Source: Halomarina pelagica (lineage in GTDB: Archaea; Halobacteriota; Halobacteria; Halobacteriales; Haloarculaceae). Taken from it: a stretch of DNA of 64,000 nucleotides. Shown here in pieces: positions 4,931-24,139 of this stretch (its first letter is position 1; each line of letters begins with the position of its first letter). Where the stretch lies: positions 1,860,001 to 1,924,000 of the forward strand of contig NZ_CP100454.1 of NCBI RefSeq assembly GCF_024228315.1, read 5' to 3'. The notes under the pieces were generated by a model. The model was not told the DNA's origin, searched no databases, and worked only from the letters and a program-made list of their open reading frames with translations. A program made the translations under genes and the position numbers.

Positions 4931-6589
4931 TTAGTTGAAATCCCTGATAGTGAGTTTGAGCGTGTCGAGATCCACGATCGGCGCGTAGGCGTGGTCGGGG
5001 TCGATGTTGACGCTCCGCTGGAAGTCGGTCTGGGCCTGCCAGCAGCCGGAGTTGATGGCGAGCACGTTGTGGTACTTCCCGTAGCCGAGCTTGTGGACGT
5101 GGCCCGTGTGGAAGATGTCGGGTACGTCGTCGACGACGAGGTAGTCGCGCTCCTCGGGCGCGAGGCGGGTGTGCCCGCCGTACTGGGGCGCGACGTGGCG
5201 CTTCTTCAGGAGCTGGTACATCGCGAGGTGTGGCTCGTCGTAGGAGGCCTTGTGCTCCGGTAGCTCCGCGATCACCTCGTCGAGCGAGACGCCGTGGTAC
5301 ATGAGCACGTTCACGCCCTCGACGGTGACGGTCGAGGGGTTGCCCGTGATGCGGGCGTCGTGGGCGCTCATGATCTCCCGGAGTTCCTCGTCGAAGGCGG
5401 GTTGCGGTTCGGCGAGGCGGACGGCGTCGTGGTTGCCCGGGATCATCACGATCTCCACGTCCCCGGGGACCTCCTTCAGGTACTCCGAGAACGCCTCGTA
5501 CTGCTCGTAGATGTCGACGATCGATAGCTCCTCGTCCTGGTTCGGGTAGACGCCGACGCCCTCGACCATGTCGCCCGCGAGCAGGAGGTACTCGACGGCC
5601 TCCGCCTCCTCGGTGTGGAGCCAGGCGGCGAACCGCGACCACTCCTCGGCGAGGAACTCCTGGCTGCCGACGTGCACGTCTGAGACGAGCGCCGCCTGCA
5701 CGTGACGGTCGGCTGTGTTCGGGCGGTGGGTGCGCGGGACGTCCGGGAAGTGAAGCGAGTCGACGAAGAGGACGCCGCCGTCCCCCGAGAGCGTCCCCTC
5801 GACGGCGATCACCTCGTCGAGCAGGAGTTCCTCCACGAGGTCGGCGATCGGCTTGTCCTTGAGGACGAGACACGGGAAGACGCCGTTGGTGTCCTCCAGT
5901 TCGACGAGCCAGTGGCCGCTGGCGGTCGATCTGACGTCGTTGATCATCCCGATGAGGGCCGTCTCCTCGCCGCCGGGCATGTTGGAGACGGCCGTCGTCG
6001 GGCGGTGGTTCACGCGACCCGTGAGCTTCCGGGAGAGTCGCTCGTAGCGGTCGCGAAACACCTTCACGAAGTCGCCGTACTCGCCGGTCCCCGTGCTCCG
6101 CCCCGTGACGTCTCCGGCGATGACCGCCGACTGCGGGGTACGGGGACGCCTAGCAGACCCCCTCGTTTCGACTGGAGAGACATCCACACCGTCGCTATCC
6201 AGCGGTGATTCTCCACCCGAAACGGAGGGGGTTGCGGGAGCGACGGAGTCGGACGGGGAGGATGGACCAGAGGAGTCGGATGGAGGAGACGGATCAGAGG
6301 GGACGGTGGAGTCCGAGGAGACGGTGGAATCAGATGGGGAAGGTGCGGAGCGAGAGGGTGCAGAACGGGAGGGTGGGGAAGGGTCCGATGCCGGTTCGCG
6401 CGAGTCGAGCGCGGTGCGAACGTGGTCGGCCGAGAGTTTCAGCGCGTCCTCGGGGACGGCCTCGAGCGCGCGTTCCAGCGCGGCCGCCGGGTCCGACGCG
6501 CGAGAGAGGAGCGTCACCGCCTCGCGTTCGGCGTTGTACCCCCGACTCGCGAGTTCCCCCACGATGCGTCGCGGCGTCTCCAGTGGCAC
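4931..6589 (-). CDS. polB: DNA polymerase D small subunit DP1 (exonuclease subunit)
   Basis: 552 residues. DP1 is the Mre11-like 3'-5' exonuclease and accessory subunit of archaeal replicative polymerase D. Residues 1-65 are the conserved helical N-terminus (PLETPRRIVGELASRGYNAE), 66-160 a Ser/Pro/Asp-rich linker, about 205-285 an OB-fold, and 296-552 the calcineurin-like phosphoesterase core. Metal-binding motifs are DVHVGS (304-309), AGD (338-340), GNHD (385-388), YHG (431-433) and GHVHK (496-500), so the nuclease centre looks complete. The GTG at 6589 is chosen because the conserved N-terminal helix starts there; the frame is open far upstream but that part is not conserved. Two ORB-like origin boxes are written into the linker (residues 120-127 and 138-144). 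Its position beside orc1 and the origin fits a replication role. Confidence 0.93.
   Translation of the reverse strand: MPLETPRRIVGELASRGYNAEREAVTLLSRASDPAAALERALEAVPEDALKLSADHVRTALDSREPASDPSPPSRSAPSRSAPSPSDSTVSSDSTVPSDPSPPSDSSGPSSPSDSVAPATPSVSGGESPLDSDGVDVSPVETRGSARRPRTPQSAVIAGDVTGRSTGTGEYGDFVKVFRDRYERLSRKLTGRVNHRPTTAVSNMPGGEETALIGMINDVRSTASGHWLVELEDTNGVFPCLVLKDKPIADLVEELLLDEVIAVEGTLSGDGGVLFVDSLHFPDVPRTHRPNTADRHVQAALVSDVHVGSQEFLAEEWSRFAAWLHTEEAEAVEYLLLAGDMVEGVGVYPNQDEELSIVDIYEQYEAFSEYLKEVPGDVEIVMIPGNHDAVRLAEPQPAFDEELREIMSAHDARITGNPSTVTVEGVNVLMYHGVSLDEVIAELPEHKASYDEPHLAMYQLLKKRHVAPQYGGHTRLAPEERDYLVVDDVPDIFHTGHVHKLGYGKYHNVLAINSGCWQAQTDFQRSVNIDPDHAYAPIVDLDTLKLTIRDFN
6157..6178 (-). other. ORB-like origin recognition box A (inside polB)
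   Basis: Minus-strand CTCCAGTCGAAACGAGGGGG matches the haloarchaeal Orc1-binding consensus (CTCCAGTGGAAACGAAGGGG with the G-run). It lies in the low-complexity linker of polB and is inverted relative to box B 31 bp away. Confidence 0.6.
6210..6232 (+). other. ORB-like origin recognition box B (inside polB)
   Basis: Plus-strand CTCCACCCGAAACGGAGGGG is a near match to the ORB consensus including the central GAAACG and the G-run. It also falls in the polB linker and forms an inverted pair with box A. Confidence 0.55.
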
Positions 6590-7910: not shown

Positions 7911-7932
7911 CTCGCAGGCGAAACGAAGGGGT
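7911..7932 (+). other. ORB-like origin recognition box C (3' side of orc1)
   Basis: CTCGCAGGCGAAACGAAGGG followed by GTACGG keeps the GAAACGAAGGGGT core but differs in the first half. It lies between the convergent ends of the signal peptidase and orc1 genes. Confidence 0.45.
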
Positions 7933-7978: not shown

Positions 7979-9877
7979 TCAGTTATCGTCGAAGCGCGCC
8001 TGGACGAACGGCTGGGCCTCCTCGACGTCCCCCAGTCGGGAGTCGCTGAGGAGGACGGCCTCCGTCTCTTCGAGCGGGACCGAGAGGCTCATCTCCTTGG
8101 TGCGCCCGTAGCGCCCCTTGCTCACCACCACGGCGTTGACGATGCCGAGCATGTCGAGTTCGCTGATGAGGTCGGTGACGCGCCGCTGGGTGAGCACGTC
8201 CATGTCGATCTCCGCGCAGAGGCGCTTGTAGATGTTGAACACCTCGCCGGTGTTGATGTTGTGGACGCCGTTTCGTTCGAGCAGGATGACGGCGTAGAGG
8301 ACGAGTTTCGACTGTGTGGGCAGGGTGCGGACCACCTCGACCACGCGGTCGAGTTCGATCTTCTCCTGGGCGCGCCGGACGTGCGCCTCGTTGATGCGCT
8401 CCGTGCGGTCGCGCTCGGCGAGTTCGCCAGCCGTGCGCAGGAGGTCGAGCGCGCGCCGCGCGTCGCCGTGTTCCTGCGCGGCGAACGCCGCACAGAGCGG
8501 GATGACGTCCTCCGAGAGCGCGTCGTCCTTGAACGCGACGTCGGCGCGCGCCTGGAGGATGTCGCGGAGCTGATTGGCGTCGTAGGGCGGGAAGACGATC
8601 TCCTCCTCCCCGAGGCTCGACTTGACGCGCGGGTCGAGGAAGTCGGTGAACTTCAGGTCGTTGGAGATGCCCATGATAGAAACTCGCGAGTTCTGGAGTT
8701 CGGAGTTCATCCGCGAGAGGTTGTAAAGCGTGTCGTCCCCGCTCTTCTCGACGAGCTTGTCGATCTCGTCGAGCATGATGACGACGACGCGCTCCTGGTA
8801 GTCGACCGCCTCGAAGAACGTCGAGTAGACCCGGTCGGTCGGCCAGCCGGTCATCGGGACCGGCTCGAACTCCTCGCGGTCGGCTTCGAGTTTCTCTACG
8901 CGCGCGCGGAGAGTGTCGAGATCAGGGAAGTCCGTTCCCTCGAGGGTCGCCTCGCCGTCCTCCACGCGATCGCGGAGATCGACGAGCCGTTCGAGGTGCG
9001 CGTCGATCCGCTCTCTGTTCTCGTCGATGAACTTGTTCGCGAGCTGCGCGAGCACGCGATACTGCGTGTCCGTCACCTCGCAGTTGATGTACTGCACCTC
9101 GCAGGGCACCTCGTACTTCTGGGAGGTGGTCTCCAGCTCCTCGCTGACGAACTTCGCGCTCGCGGTCTTGCCCGTCCCCGTCTTCCCGTAGATGAGGATG
9201 TTCGAGGGCGTCTCACCCCGTAACGCGGTGACGAGGATCGTCGCCATGTTGTTGATCTGCTCTTCCCGGTGCGGGAGGCGTCGAGGCGTGTAAGAGGGCC
9301 TGAGCACCTCCTTGTTCTCGAAGATCGGCTCGCCGCTCAACAGGTCGTCGAACAGTCCCGGCGAGGCCTCGTCCGCGTCGTCCGCGAGCCCGCGGTCGGA
9401 GAAGGCCCCACCCGTACCGGAGAACGAGAACGAGTCACCCGTGGCCACCCCCCCGCTCGCGGGAGACGTCGAGCCACTCGAACCGTCGGCATCGTCGTTC
9501 GAACCGTCGACGTCCTCGTCCGGCGTCGGCCTGTCGTCGGTCGCCCGCCCGTCGTCGGTCGTCGGCCTGTCGTCGGTCGACGTCTCTCTCGCGGTCGCGT
9601 CCGTCGAAGTCGCGTCCGTCGAAGTCGCGTCCGGTAGAGTAGCTTCGGGTGGAGTCGCCCCTGTCGACGGCGTGTCCGCTGACGGCGCGTCCGCTGACGG
9701 CGTGCCTGCCGACGGAGTCGTCGAGTTCGCCTCCGTCGAGTCTGCTCCCTCGTCGCCGTCGCCGGCGGTTCCGTCCGGTGAACCGTCGGTCTCGGCCGAC
9801 GCGGATACGTCGTCAGTGGCGGATCGCCCGTCGTCGGAGGCACTCGATCGTGATCCGTCCGGGTCTTCGTCGGTCAT
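7979..9877 (-). CDS. orc1: Orc1/Cdc6 replication initiator
   Basis: 632 residues. Orc1/Cdc6 proteins bind ORB elements and load MCM at the origin. The AAA+ core starts near residue 185 (PIFENKEVLRPSYTPRRLPHRE); Walker A is GKTGTGKT (231-238), Walker B is VIMLDEID (367-373), and a sensor-1 phrase GISNDLKFTD follows. A C-terminal winged-helix domain covers about 510-632. Residues 1-170 are a low-complexity acidic Ser/Thr/Asp extension with the repeated phrase STDAT; this is much longer than in most haloarchaeal Orc1 proteins I recall. A further segment at about 285-345 is a charged insertion. The ATG at 9877 is the first in-frame start and lies after a promoter that overlaps an ORB. Location beside the inverted ORB pair and oapABC marks this as the oriC1-type initiator. 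Confidence 0.94.
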   Translation of the reverse strand: MTDEDPDGSRSSASDDGRSATDDVSASAETDGSPDGTAGDGDEGADSTEANSTTPSAGTPSADAPSADTPSTGATPPEATLPDATSTDATSTDATARETSTDDRPTTDDGRATDDRPTPDEDVDGSNDDADGSSGSTSPASGGVATGDSFSFSGTGGAFSDRGLADDADEASPGLFDDLLSGEPIFENKEVLRPSYTPRRLPHREEQINNMATILVTALRGETPSNILIYGKTGTGKTASAKFVSEELETTSQKYEVPCEVQYINCEVTDTQYRVLAQLANKFIDENRERIDAHLERLVDLRDRVEDGEATLEGTDFPDLDTLRARVEKLEADREEFEPVPMTGWPTDRVYSTFFEAVDYQERVVVIMLDEIDKLVEKSGDDTLYNLSRMNSELQNSRVSIMGISNDLKFTDFLDPRVKSSLGEEEIVFPPYDANQLRDILQARADVAFKDDALSEDVIPLCAAFAAQEHGDARRALDLLRTAGELAERDRTERINEAHVRRAQEKIELDRVVEVVRTLPTQSKLVLYAVILLERNGVHNINTGEVFNIYKRLCAEIDMDVLTQRRVTDLISELDMLGIVNAVVVSKGRYGRTKEMSLSVPLEETEAVLLSDSRLGDVEEAQPFVQARFDDN

Positions 9878-9900: not shown

Positions 9901-9928
9901 CGACCCCCTCGTTTCAGGTGGAGTCACA
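9901..9928 (-). other. ORB-like origin recognition box D (orc1 5' region)
   Basis: Minus-strand ACTCCACCTGAAACGAGGGG with GTCG following keeps the ORB core and G-run. It lies 24-51 bases upstream of the orc1 ATG, about where transcription should start. Confidence 0.6.
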
Positions 9929-9959: not shown

Positions 9960-10185
9960 GCCCGTCACGACCGTTCACGCAAATGGCGGGTAGGGAATGC
10001 GTCCAGTTGATGCAGGAGAACACGTGGAGGAGATTGTAATTAAGCATTGTGATCCCGTCCGATCGAGTGAGAGAGTTCGACGGAGGCGCTTCGCGCACGG
10101 TCGAATGACCACCTTGGTCGGTAGATCTTCCTCTGTCGGTAGATCTCCCCGATCGGTATTTCAGGACTCCCCGGTCGGGATGAGT

Positions 10186-10287
10186 GATGAGGACGAACGA
10201 GTGACGAGGCTAAACGAGCGGCGAGGCTAAACGAGCGGCGAGACTAAACGAGTGGCGAGGTTAAACGGGCGACGAGGCAACACGAGA
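10186..10287. repeat. Six-unit 17-bp iteron-like direct repeat array
   Basis: Six contiguous 17-bp units with consensus GRCGAGGCTAAACGAGC run from 10186 to 10287 (units at 10186, 10203, 10220, 10237, 10254, 10271). Units diverge gradually towards both ends. The array is in the gene-free origin region between orc1 and the AT-rich core. The motif is unlike the ORB. Confidence 0.8.
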
Positions 10288-10450
10288 GGCGAATCCATCC
10301 GGACGGGGAGAGCGACCGACGGAGACGTGGGGACGTACCGACGGAGACGTGGAGGCGTTCGCGGGGTGGAGCGGCATTTACGCGCTGGTGTACTCTTGGA
10401 GAACCTGACCCGCACGCTGTCCGCACAGACCCGGGATCCGTCCTCCTCGT

Positions 10451-10515
10451 GATCCGGAGTCCACGTGATCCGGAGTCCACGTGATATAGAGTCTCACGTA
10501 ATACAGAGTCCACGC
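10451..10515. repeat. Four-unit 16-17-bp direct repeat in the origin region
   Basis: Units GATCCGGAGTCCACGT at 10451 and 10467 are followed by diverged copies at 10483 (one base longer) and 10500. Shorter duplications also lie nearby (CGGTAGATCT at 10120-10150; CCGACGGAGACGTGG at 10316-10353). Confidence 0.7.
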
Positions 10516-10805
10516 GAACCGAACCCTCCCCGGTGAGTCGACTCGCCGGTCGCGGCGAGCGCCGGTGAAGACCGCCGGAGTGCCGCCACCGTCGCGAAAC
10601 GGTCTACTAGGGCCCTCGGTAGCCTAGAAGACGCTAGAGGTGTATTCGAAAGATTGGGGTAACCTTCTTCGGATACGAGTGACAGCGTCATTTCGTGTGG
10701 AGCGGACCGGAGAGGAATCGTACTGGAGAGAACCGACGGTATCGTCCCTTTATCGCCGTTTGGTGGGAGAATCGTCGATGGGGAGAGCGGTCGGGAAACG
10801 GTGAA

Positions 10806-11108
10806 ACCCCCCATCCCCTTCGTTTCGAGTCGAACGTGAGCGAGAGAGGGAGGGGGGTAGCGAGAGCCGCGATCGTCCCTAGACGAGGAAACACTTATTA
10901 CAATAAAGAACAAACAGTATCCGCACTGCGAACAAAAGCGTTATTCGTTGTTGGTTTACTAGAATTAGAGAGTGAATCTAGAGAGACGTTTCTAGTCCTA
11001 GTGAGTTTAACGTCTCGTTTAGTCCGTCGTTCTGACGAATCCACCCGATCCGCCGACCCCCTCCCCACCCTCGCGGGCCGCTCCAGTGGAAACGAAGGGG
11101 TGGGGGTC
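10806..11108. other. Replication origin core (oriC1 type): inverted ORBs flanking an AT-rich unwinding region
   Basis: Box E on the minus strand (10806-10835) reads CTCGAAACGAAGGGGATGGG and box F on the plus strand (11081-11108) reads CTCCAGTGGAAACGAAGGGG followed by TGGGGGTC; each has the extra G-string seen in haloarchaeal ORBs. Between them, 10880-11035 is strikingly AT-rich for this genome (for example ACACTTATTACAATAAAGAA), the likely DNA unwinding element. The arrangement (inverted ORBs, AT-rich middle, orc1 on one side, oapABC on the other) is the described haloarchaeal oriC1 plan. Origin activity itself is inferred. Confidence 0.87.
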
Positions 11109-11370: not shown

Positions 11371-11532
11371 TCGGCCACTCCTGCTCGGCGGATTCCGTTC
11401 CCGCTCCGTCGTTCCGCCGGTCCCTCCGACTCCCAAACTCTTGACAGGTGTCTGACGCACCCTTAAGTACATCGGGTCTGGTATACCGGGTAGACGCGCC
11501 CCCGTGTGGGGTCGTGGGAGGACACAATACGG

Positions 11533-12180
11533 ATGGGACTGCTCACCGACCTCAGGGATAGCATCTCGCGAGCCACCTCTCGACTCTTCGCGGGACCGGG
11601 ACAGGAACCGAAACGCATCGGCATCTACGGTCCGCCGAACGCCGGTAAAACCACGTTAGCAAACCGCATAGCTCGCGACTGGACCGGGGACGCCGTCGGT
11701 CCGGAGAGTCACGTTCCACACGAAACGCGCCGCGCCCGGCGCAAGGAGAACGTCGAGATCAAGCGCAACGGCAAGACCGTCACGATCGACATCGTCGACA
11801 CGCCGGGCGTGACGACGAAGGTCGACTACAAGGAGTTCCTCGAACACGACATGGAGAAGGAGGACGCCGTCCGCCGGTCACGGGAGGCCACCGAGGGCGT
11901 CGCGGAGGCCATGCACTGGCTCCGGGAGGACGTCGACGGCGTCATCTACGTGCTCGACAGCGCCGAGGACCCGTTCACGCAGGTCAATACGATGCTCATC
12001 GGTATCATCGAGAGCCGCGACCTGCCCGTGCTCATCTTCGCGAACAAGATCGATCTGGAGGAGTCGAGCGTCCAGCGCATCTCGAACGCCTTCCCACAGC
12101 ACGAGACCGTCCCGCTGTCGGCGCTCGAGGGCGACAACATGGACGAGGTCTACGACAAAATCGCGGAGTACTTCGCCTGA
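11533..12180 (+). CDS. oapA: Era-like GTPase, origin-associated protein A
   Basis: 215 residues. It is a small G protein of the Era/TrmE-like group that is conserved beside haloarchaeal oriC1; its cellular role is not established. The G1 P-loop is GPPNAGKTT (33-41), G3 is DTPG (89-92), G4 is NKID (171-174) and G5 is SAL (196-198). Residues 1-25 form an amphipathic helix (LTDLRDSISRATSRLF). I chose the ATG at 11533 (MGLLTDLRD) rather than the GTG-like starts upstream because conserved homologues start there and a TATA-like CCTTAAGTAC precedes it. It is the first gene of a tight oapA-oapB-oapC operon (4 bp, then a 1-base overlap). Confidence 0.88.
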   Translation: MGLLTDLRDSISRATSRLFAGPGQEPKRIGIYGPPNAGKTTLANRIARDWTGDAVGPESHVPHETRRARRKENVEIKRNGKTVTIDIVDTPGVTTKVDYKEFLEHDMEKEDAVRRSREATEGVAEAMHWLREDVDGVIYVLDSAEDPFTQVNTMLIGIIESRDLPVLIFANKIDLEESSVQRISNAFPQHETVPLSALEGDNMDEVYDKIAEYFA

Positions 12181-12184
12181 TACC

Positions 12185-12577
12185 ATGCCCGAATACACCA
12201 CCTCCGACGGCGAAGGCGTCCAGATCGACCTCATCAGCGGCGAGCGGATGTCGAAGCTCCGCACCATGGAGAAGATCCGACTCATCCTCGACGGCGTCCA
12301 CAAGGGGAACATCGTCATCCTCGAGGACGGGCTCTCGCCGGACGAGGAGTCGAAGCTCATCGAGGTGACGATGAGCGAGATCAGTCCCGACGAGTTCACC
12401 GGCATCGAGATCGAGACCTATCCGCGACCGAGCGGCAACGACAGCGGCTTCTTCGGACGGCTGATGGGGCGCGGCTCCGACGGCGGGAACAAGCTGACCG
12501 TCATCGGTCCGGCGAACCGCATCGAGACGCTCCACAAGGACGAGAACCTCATCAGCGCGCTCGTCACCCGGAAATAA
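12185..12577 (+). CDS. oapB: DUF2073 protein, origin-associated protein B
   Basis: 130 residues of the archaeal DUF2073 family. The conserved core reads IDLISGERMSKLRTMEKIRLILDGVHKGNIVILE, then a helix and strand block ending LTVIGPANRIETLHKDENLISALV. No enzymatic motif is visible. It begins 4 bases after the oapA stop, and its stop overlaps the oapC start (TAATG), so the three are almost certainly co-transcribed and translationally coupled. Linkage to oriC1 suggests a role in replication or in coupling replication to another process; that is inference only. Length is normal for the family. Confidence 0.87.
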   Translation: MPEYTTSDGEGVQIDLISGERMSKLRTMEKIRLILDGVHKGNIVILEDGLSPDEESKLIEVTMSEISPDEFTGIEIETYPRPSGNDSGFFGRLMGRGSDGGNKLTVIGPANRIETLHKDENLISALVTRK

Positions 12578-13398
12578 TGCCCCACCAGTGTACCGACTGC
12601 GGCCACGTGTTCGCCGACGGGTCGAAGGAGATGCTGTCGGGCTGCCCCGAGTGCGGCGGGACGAAGTTCCAGTTCCACCCGAAGGGGAGCCCCGTCTCCG
12701 AGACGCCGTCGGACGCGACGCCGCCCGAACCGGAGGCGGGTGGCGTCGCGGAGACGGTCGGACGCGCGACCACGACCGTCCGCGGCTGGGTGCACGGACG
12801 GGACGCGCCCGACGCCTCCGGTTCGCTCGATCCCTCCGACCCGCATGGCCCCTCCGACACGTCCGGTACCTCCGACGCATCCGGTACCTCCGACGCATCC
12901 GGTACCTCCGACGCATCCGGTACCTCCGACGCATCCGACGCGTCCGACGCACCCGTGTCCTCCGGCGGCCTCCCCGACCCGGATGCCCCCAGCGCCCCCT
13001 CGTCTTCGACTGGAACGGCCGACCAGTCAGAAGCGGGTAACCTCCCGAATTCGGTCGTGGAGGACGCGGCTCAGGCCTCCGCCCGTCGAGAGATCGCATC
13101 GCCGGAGGAACTCCCCGACCCCGGTCGCGACGCCGGTCCGCACGCGCGGGACGTCGACGCCGAACCGCCGAACGAGGGCCGCGTGGTGCGCGAACCCACC
13201 GGCGAGCGCCCCGACCTCTCCGAACTCCGGGAGGAACTCAACGAGCAGTTCGAGAGCATCAAGATCCTCGAACCCGGGCAGTACGAACTCAACCTCATGG
13301 AACTGTACGACCGCGACGAGTACATCATCGCCCTCCAGGAGAACGGACGGTACGTCATCCAGATGCCCGAGAACTGGATCGGTCGGGACGACGAGTGA
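12577..13398 (+). CDS. oapC: OapC/ArvC-type zinc-ribbon protein with repeat-expanded linker
   Basis: 273 residues. An N-terminal zinc ribbon uses Cys5, Cys8, Cys23 and Cys26 (CTDC...CPEC). Residues about 35-205 are a variable acidic Ser/Thr/Pro/Asp linker, including four copies of TSDASG encoded by an 18-bp tandem repeat (unit GGTACCTCCGACGCATCC) at about 12866-12937. The C-terminal ~65 residues are the conserved domain (SELREELNEQFESIKILEPGQYELNLMELY), ending WIGRDDE. The ribbon suggests nucleic-acid or protein binding. It overlaps the oapB stop by one base. An ORB-like box follows 45 bases after its stop. Confidence 0.87.
   Translation: MPHQCTDCGHVFADGSKEMLSGCPECGGTKFQFHPKGSPVSETPSDATPPEPEAGGVAETVGRATTTVRGWVHGRDAPDASGSLDPSDPHGPSDTSGTSDASGTSDASGTSDASGTSDASDASDAPVSSGGLPDPDAPSAPSSSTGTADQSEAGNLPNSVVEDAAQASARREIASPEELPDPGRDAGPHARDVDAEPPNEGRVVREPTGERPDLSELREELNEQFESIKILEPGQYELNLMELYDRDEYIIALQENGRYVIQMPENWIGRDDE
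12866..12937 (+). repeat. 18-bp tandem repeat inside oapC
   Basis: Four in-frame copies of GGTACCTCCGACGCATCC encode a Gly-Thr-Ser-Asp-Ala-Ser repeat in the oapC linker. The near-identity of the copies implies recent expansion. Confidence 0.85.
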
Positions 13399-13442: not shown

Positions 13443-13467
13443 TTTTCCAGTGGAAACGAAGGGGTTT
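13443..13467 (+). other. ORB-like origin recognition box G (downstream of oapC)
   Basis: TTTTCCAGTGGAAACGAAGG continuing GGTTTTTC is one of the best matches to the ORB in the window. It lies 2.3 kb from box F, beyond the oap operon. The trailing T-run could also help terminate oapC transcription. Confidence 0.65.
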
Positions 13468-19994: not shown

Positions 19995-20008
19995 TGCCGC
20001 TCACCTCA

Positions 20009-20030
20009 CAAAGACGTACGTCTACTTTGT
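20009..20030. promoter_or_regulatory. Palindrome before nirA
   Basis: ACAAAGACGTACGTCTACTTTGT is an almost perfect inverted repeat around ACGTACGT, 15-36 bases before the nirA GTG. The position suits an operator. The surrounding 365-bp gap (19995-20359) is AT-rich near 20030-20150 and holds no gene. Confidence 0.45.
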
Positions 20031-20359
20031 CGGCTGATTTTTTCATGTACATTCTTCGTTTCACTCTAAGTCGGATGATCGTGGAGCACAATAGGATAAA
20101 AGCGTAATCGTTGAAAATATCTAAAAACGCCGCGTCGGGCGGAACGAGCGTCTAATCTGAGTAGGTGTATAGGCGATATAAGGGGGTTCTTTGTCGAAAA
20201 ACGGCGGAGGATACGGAACGCAACTGTCCCATCGTCAAATTGTCGTCGGCCGCTCCCACCGCCTCGCGCCGTCCCGTCGCGCGCGAGTTCGCCCCGCTCG
20301 TGGCTCCTGTCCCGCGTTCGCGGAAGAATTCGGAGGAGGGTGACGGGCGTCGAGTCGCC

Positions 20360-23746: not shown

Positions 23747-23817
23747 CGGCGCACCACCGCGGGACGCGATCGAGGTGGACGAACGTCCGCGAATCTCGAA
23801 TCTCGGTCGTGTTTCAT
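23743..23817 (-). CDS. 24-residue leader reading frame overlapping the nasA start
   Basis: ATG at 23817 encodes MKHDRDSRFADVRPPRSR then PAVVRR, and its TGA overlaps the nasA ATG as ATGA. The peptide is unusually basic (9 Arg/Lys/His-type residues), unlike the acidic norm here. The predicted transcription start (TATA at 23851-23859) would place this frame first on the mRNA with about 10 bases of leader. It could be a translational coupling device rather than a functional peptide. Confidence 0.45.
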   Translation of the reverse strand: MKHDRDSRFADVRPPRSRPAVVRR

Positions 23818-23850
23818 TGGTACTCGACGTAAAAAGTTGATACAGTACTG

Positions 23851-23859
23851 ATTTATAGT
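23851..23859 (-). promoter_or_regulatory. TATA box of the nas operon
   Basis: Minus-strand ACTATAAAT lies about 35-42 bases before the leader frame ATG and about 105 bases before nasA. Confidence 0.55.
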
Positions 23860-23946
23860 CTCAACTGTTTATGAATGTCTCTTTGTGTGCGACATCGGCA
23901 GACGAACGGCCAAAAACACAACGTGTATTACGCGACTAAGGGAATT

Positions 23947-23992
23947 TTTCGTCCAATTCCGAGGCGGACACCCCTCGAAAAACTGGACGAAA
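23947..23992. terminator. Inverted repeat between thrC and the nas promoter
   Basis: TTTCGTCCA (23947-23955) pairs with TGGACGAAA (23984-23992), and an inner CGAGG/CCTCG pair shortens the loop. It lies 148 bp beyond the upstream end of the nas promoter and 150 bp before the thrC stop. As both neighbours are on the minus strand it could be regulatory for nas or simply a palindromic repeat. The rest of 23860-24139 shows no gene. Confidence 0.4.
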
Positions 23993-24139
23993 TACATTCC
24001 CGTCGGTCGGCGATCGACGCGGCGGTAGGGAGGTCGATCGCCCGACCGCGCGCCGGCGATCCGCACCGTCCTCTCACCGTTCGACCACCGCGTCCCTCCC
24101 GCGGCGAGGTGGGTCTGGGGGTCCGATTGACCGTCCCGC

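Follow-up and report, generated by a model that had tools for sequence, protein, structure and literature searches.

We propose, as a reasonably probable reading, that oriC1 is a class-wide two-tier system in the Halobacteria, in which a licensing pair of ORBs with G-strings would be accompanied by conserved short ORBs (an operator upstream of orc1, an inverted pair inside dp1, and a gradient over several hundred kb). These short ORBs would form an initiator-feedback or chromosome-marking network, which would have escaped description since ORB searches had been restricted to the intergenic neighborhood of cdc6 genes. The proposal started from the window, i.e., the whole 64,000-nucleotide stretch of Halomarina pelagica DNA that was analysed, in which motif, composition and gene context support the identification of positions 10807-11106 as oriC1 of the main chromosome of this haloarchaeon of the Haloarculaceae. 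The core as such is an ordinary conserved chromosomal oriC1 of a known kind, and the set of satellite ORBs around it looks like an apparently undescribed variant. The core and its neighboring genes contain the following features (window coordinates).

4931-6475, minus strand: dp1, small subunit of DNA polymerase D (PolD); PF04042 (DNA_pol_E_B, metallophosphoesterase); start codon provisional
7979-9877, minus strand: orc1 (Orc1/Cdc6 initiator, 632 aa); Cdc6_C and Cdc6_lid matches
10807-10812: C-run, the extended G-string of the left core ORB
10815-10834, minus strand: left core ORB, TTCGACTCGAAACGAAGGGG; 31.9 bits; aligned in 8/8 same-genus genomes
10848-10858, plus strand: left arm of a G-rich inverted repeat, read from the sequence
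10879, 10959, 10978, 10992 and 10998: CTAG sites in or bordering the AT-rich core
10880-11009: AT-rich core, 36.9% GC against 69% GC for the window; likely unwinding element
10989-11001: TTTCTAGTYCTAG, within the AT-rich core; invariant in 8/8 same-genus genomes; contains two CTAG methylation sites
11056-11066, minus strand: right arm of the G-rich inverted repeat, one mismatch to the left arm
11081-11100, plus strand: right core ORB, CTCCAGTGGAAACGAAGGGG; 30.1 bits; aligned in 8/8 same-genus genomes
11102-11106: G-run of the extended G-string of the right core ORB (TGGGGGT, reaching 11107)
11533-12180, plus strand: oapA (GTPase); an alternative GTG start at 11506 is possible
12185-12577, plus strand: oapB (PF09846, 5.8e-41)
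12577-13398, plus strand: oapC (PF09845, 3.8e-28)

A sequence-only reading of the window had placed here two near-consensus ORBs facing each other about 245 bp apart, flanked by orc1 and oapABC. Both boxes were recovered at 31.9 and 30.1 bits (the best possible score is 36.5 bits for our ORB matrix, built from 85 haloarchaeal core ORBs); they are inverted with their G-strings pointing outward and 246 bp between them, and the flanking genes were confirmed by domain matches (Cdc6_C, Cdc6_lid, GTPase, PF09846 and PF09845). The window contains 4 ORB matches, as compared to a mean of 0.02 in dinucleotide shuffles at the same stringency, which excludes a chance origin of these matches. Both core ORBs are kept in position in the relatives, namely in 8/8 same-genus genomes and in nearly all class-wide loci examined. 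The intervening span had also been called the most AT-rich part of the window; this holds at a scale of 130 bp (10880-11009 is the lowest-GC 130-bp stretch) but not at 245 bp, where the origin span ranks behind 20001-20245 (45.7% GC) and level with 23763-24007 (47.3%), two short stretches of 46-47% GC that are as AT-rich as the origin span.

The arms of the G-rich inverted repeat sit 13-14 bp inward of each core ORB, and in place and composition the repeat matches the oriC1 enhancer repeat of Haloarcula hispanica, where the G-rich inverted repeat is an origin enhancer and G-string mutations abolish origin function (PMC3936714). The cumulative G-C curve of the window reaches its maximum at 11005, within the AT-rich core, and mean GC skew changes from positive values left of the origin to negative ones right of it (Mann-Whitney p = 0.016; 20 chromosome stretches of 15 kb plus the window), an inverted sense already known for haloarchaea (PMC2841640). 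With gene context, inverted ORBs with extended G-strings, G-rich repeat, AT-rich core, skew reversal and conservation all found, the earlier assignment to the oriC1 type stands; by analogy to oriC1 described in other haloarchaea, this origin would be expected to fire in vivo. We note that TTTCTAGTYCTAG (10989-11001) may act as a binding site, in a position comparable to that of the Sulfolobus ucm motif (PMC12141716). Between orc1 and the core there are also degenerate tandem repeats with units of 17 bp (GAGYGGCGAGGCTAAAC) and 16 bp (CGTGATCCGGAGTCCA), at 10182-10283 and 10432-10521.

The density of CTAG in oriC1 cores (162 sites over 10.7 kb) is about 50 times that of the flanks, and the core has 0-1 CTAG in the six genomes that lack a homologue of the N4/N6 methylase of this genome. 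CTAG clusters at haloarchaeal origins and their link with an orphan m4C methylase were reported earlier (PMC4752239), so we do not count the clustering as novel; here it only supports the oriC1 identification.

The order dp1, signal peptidase, orc1, origin, oapABC is found in most full-length loci across the class. The product of orc1 has intact AAA+, lid and winged-helix domains, is the top Cdc6_lid match genome-wide, and shares 88-93% identity with same-genus Orc1 proteins. Its conserved region is preceded by an N-terminal extension (9428-9877) of about 150 aa, low-complexity and rich in Ser, Thr and Asp; class-wide, its length lies between about 10 and 170 aa. In Halovivax asiaticus the oap operon and the likely core ORBs lie across dp1 from orc1 (a natural rearrangement), and two ORBs in inverted orientation, 80 bp from each other, follow oapC. 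The H. pelagica genome contains 14 Cdc6_lid matches, five of them on contig C1 including the orc1 of oriC1, which suggests further candidate origins. On C3, three TTACTGGAAACGATGGGG copies (C3:78881-79366) adjoin another orc1/cdc6 gene (C3:80414), and this is likely to be a distinct origin with a box type of its own.

The sequence-only reading had taken 10806-11108 as a complete origin. The oriC1 features are indeed present, but the interval is too narrow, because the ORB set reaches several kb beyond it. An ORB-pattern search of the whole genome (4.6 Mb) gave 8 matches: 7 fall in a stretch of 7.3 kb around the core, and the eighth is 75 kb from oriC1. Besides the core pair, the ORBs of the window are the following.

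6158-6177, minus strand: left half of the dp1 satellite pair; encodes SPVETRG
6211-6230 (6211/6213), plus strand: right half of the dp1 satellite pair; its complement encodes TPSVSGGE
7914-7931, plus strand: weak ORB-like site, GCAGGCGAAACGAAGGGG, in the gap after the orc1 stop codon; below the 14-bit threshold
9904-9923, minus strand: satellite ORB, CTCCACCTGAAACGAGGGGG, 26-27 bp upstream of the orc1 ATG; candidate operator for orc1 autoregulation
13445-13464, plus strand: satellite ORB after oapC, TTCCAGTGGAAACGAAGGGG followed by TTTTTC; zero pattern mismatches; without the G-string extension

We searched 50 haloarchaeal loci over about 10 kb to each side of orc1 (matrix from 85 core ORBs, 14-bit threshold) and obtained 291 ORB matches, with satellites recurring at fixed places across the loci. 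Chance matching is ruled out as a source of the satellites by the shuffles and by the reversed sequences (0 matches against 291); reversed-pattern controls gave 1 match in 8 genomes and 3 in 19 genomes. An ORB upstream of orc1, on the orc1 strand, was found in 43/49 loci; an ATG follows it after 6-16 bp in most cases and after 24-27 bp in this species and its closest relatives. The ORB after oapC is present in 8/8 same-genus genomes and in 13/43 loci class-wide, an extra ORB lies inside orc1 in loci of Natrinema, Natronococcus, Natronolimnohabitans and Halovivax, and the dp1 pair and the oapC site are absent or weak in several genera. An extended G-string (5 or 6 G in the six-base extension) is found in 95% of 94 core ORBs versus 4% of 197 satellites. 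In H. hispanica, oriC1 cannot function without the G-string (PMC3936714), so the satellites probably lack the ability to license an origin.

The dp1 pair is oriented minus then plus, with a spacing of 53 bp in the window, and of 56 bp in most genera and in 13 of the 19 pairs class-wide (the others are 53, 68, 71 or 74 bp). The spacings always differ by multiples of 3, and the reading frame is nearly always the same. At least one dp1 box scores above threshold in 30 of 38 dp1 genes, and a weaker pair, also spaced at 56 bp, occurs in three additional same-genus genomes. The peptides encoded by the boxes are DPSVSTG (opposite strand) and SPVETKG (same strand), located in a fast-changing linker. 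Within the boxes, Val is encoded by GTT in 17/17 cases (6.5% in the rest of dp1), Thr by ACT in 12/12 (6.0%), Gly by GGA in 17/17 (10.8%) and Pro by CCA in 23/24 (7.2%), figures that are inflated by counting at sites selected by motif score, a bias partly removed by a control in which sites were chosen by peptide. In this control, PLET near the start of dp1 uses GAG while the linker PVET uses GAA, and PSVS outside the box has ordinary codons. The motif could be thought a by-product of a conserved peptide; we rejected this, as the box is encoded in one orientation by one peptide and in the other by a different one, with codons that are otherwise rare, and similar peptides in other parts of dp1 (PLET, PSVS) use ordinary ones. 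These sequence statistics show the dp1 pair to be under DNA-level selection. It is unlikely to be a second origin: the 33-54 bp between its boxes have 53-83% GC, and the boxes are without the G-string.

The codon usage also bears on the notion that the core alone is functional and the satellites are relics of older origins, or recombination copies, kept by synteny. Gene order around oriC1 is strongly conserved (PMC4010727), so inheritance alone could carry such sites along; relics would decay, though, and here the exact motif and a fixed spacing are kept class-wide, in a fast-changing linker and with rare synonymous codons. We regard relics as very improbable, and the statistics of motif and codon use show that the second-tier ORBs are real and under selection at the DNA level.

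ORB density falls with distance from the core. In 15 genomes of the class (one rearranged genome, G063, was left out), satellite density per Mb is 127 at 0.3-10 kb, 14 at 10-50 kb, 5.4 at 50-100 kb, 0.85 at 100-200 kb, 0.92 at 200-400 kb and 0.50 at 400-800 kb, and 0 satellites were found in the 12 Mb scanned beyond 800 kb; 60 of the 70 satellites in these genomes lie within 100 kb of the core. On circular chromosomes the origin-near excess beyond 10 kb has a KS p = 3e-9, in a tally that includes G063, which swelled its 100-200 kb bin; the p-value is only a guide since related genomes are non-independent samples. Within the genus, sites occur at +62.5 to +62.9 kb in three species and at about -37 kb (-36.5/-37.0) in two, and this recurrence at the same distance means that at least some distal sites were inherited and kept. 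The eighth match of our own genome is a pattern-perfect ORB at C1:1945776-1945795, about 50 bp after a tRNA-Gln gene.

The decay with distance, the equal distances of distal sites in several species (those just given) and the inverted-pair geometry in dp1 are what one would expect of centromere-like or nucleoid-organising sites, where Orc1 or another reader of the same box would mark the origin region over hundreds of kb, in the manner of parS, for chromosome organisation or segregation. The best-conserved satellite, however, has a fixed place upstream of the start of orc1, as would fit a role in gene control, and no protein is known to spread from ORBs. We consider a centromere-like role unlikely.

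Gene control in its plain form would mean that the satellites serve ordinary Orc1-dependent transcription of orc1, dp1 and the oap operon, with no titration role. Sites do lie at or in orc1 and dp1 and beside oapC, and the paralogue Orc1-2 has been reported as a global regulator of DNA-damage-responsive expression (PMC9738581). The dp1 pair, in turn, sits about 250-300 bp inside the gene, away from the promoter, and distal sites adjoin unrelated genes, such as tRNA-Gln at the 75 kb site; we find transcription control alone about as doubtful as the centromere-like role.

We give a slightly better than even chance to a mechanism in which the licensing pair is complemented by second-tier ORBs for Orc1 feedback and titration, limiting re-initiation. 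Orc1 (7979-9877) would bind the two inverted core ORBs, which extended G-strings and the inner G-rich repeat would make competent, so that the AT-rich core is melted and MCM loaded, by analogy to experiments on oriC1 of H. hispanica and Sulfolobus. The second tier would consist of the ORBs without an extended G-string, i.e., those upstream of orc1, in dp1 and after oapC, and those spread thinly over a few hundred kb on each side. Orc1 on the orc1-upstream ORB would repress orc1, and the origin-proximal satellites, doubled once oriC1 fires, would soak up free Orc1; autorepression and titration together would limit re-initiation, working like dnaA autoregulation combined with datA-type titration. 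We infer the binding of satellites by Orc1, the repression of orc1 and the titration of Orc1 from the boxes and their positions, and motif identity suggests that the reader would be the Orc1 of oriC1 rather than a paralogue (14 Cdc6_lid matches). As at a titration locus, extra initiator boxes were found outside the replicating core and near the origin; as a counterpoint, titration by a handful of sites may be weak in polyploid cells.

Our literature search found no described mechanism by which archaea would keep the conserved oriC1 from re-firing. Satellite boxes could be a way for cells to keep the initiator protein in check: if they bind Orc1, they would constitute a testable cis-encoded feedback circuit at the one origin common to all haloarchaea, accessible in genetically tractable genera (Haloferax, Haloarcula). 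An inverted pair of initiator boxes kept by codon choice inside a replicative polymerase gene would, if true, be remarkable on its own, and the fall in ORB density away from the origin is reminiscent of origin-marking systems in bacteria. The satellite system was not found described in our literature search, although some of its sites, above all the orc1-upstream ORB, may have been listed earlier. Earlier ORB searches were confined to intergenic regions beside cdc6 genes (PMC3528665; PMC4595724), and ORBs inside dp1 or far from the origin would therefore have been missed.

Among known systems, the core resembles oriC1 of Haloarcula hispanica (oriC1-cdc6A) and of Haloferax in having a neighboring orc1/cdc6 gene, two inverted ORBs with the halophile-specific G-string, a G-rich inverted repeat just inside the ORBs, an AT-rich core and the same neighbors. 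The published oriC1 maps consulted here show the inverted core pair alone, whereas here there are also orc1-upstream, dp1-internal, oapC and distal ORBs. In H. hispanica, a downstream cluster of ORBs, oriC2D, restrains oriC2; it has 11 ORBs downstream of cdc6E, and a titration of Cdc6E has been proposed (PMC3936714). The satellites share with oriC2D the presence of extra initiator boxes near an origin, outside its replicating core, and a proposed negative control. They differ in form, since oriC2D is a dense cluster in one intergenic region that belongs to another initiator family, while the satellites at oriC1 comprise isolated boxes plus a single intragenic pair, in fixed positions, and a long-range gradient. 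The boxes at the initiator gene and the logic of titration sites also recall dnaA autoregulation and datA of Escherichia coli (as cited in PMC3936714); there the initiator and the box are unrelated to those of oriC1, and the satellite system is analogous to the bacterial one, not a member of it.
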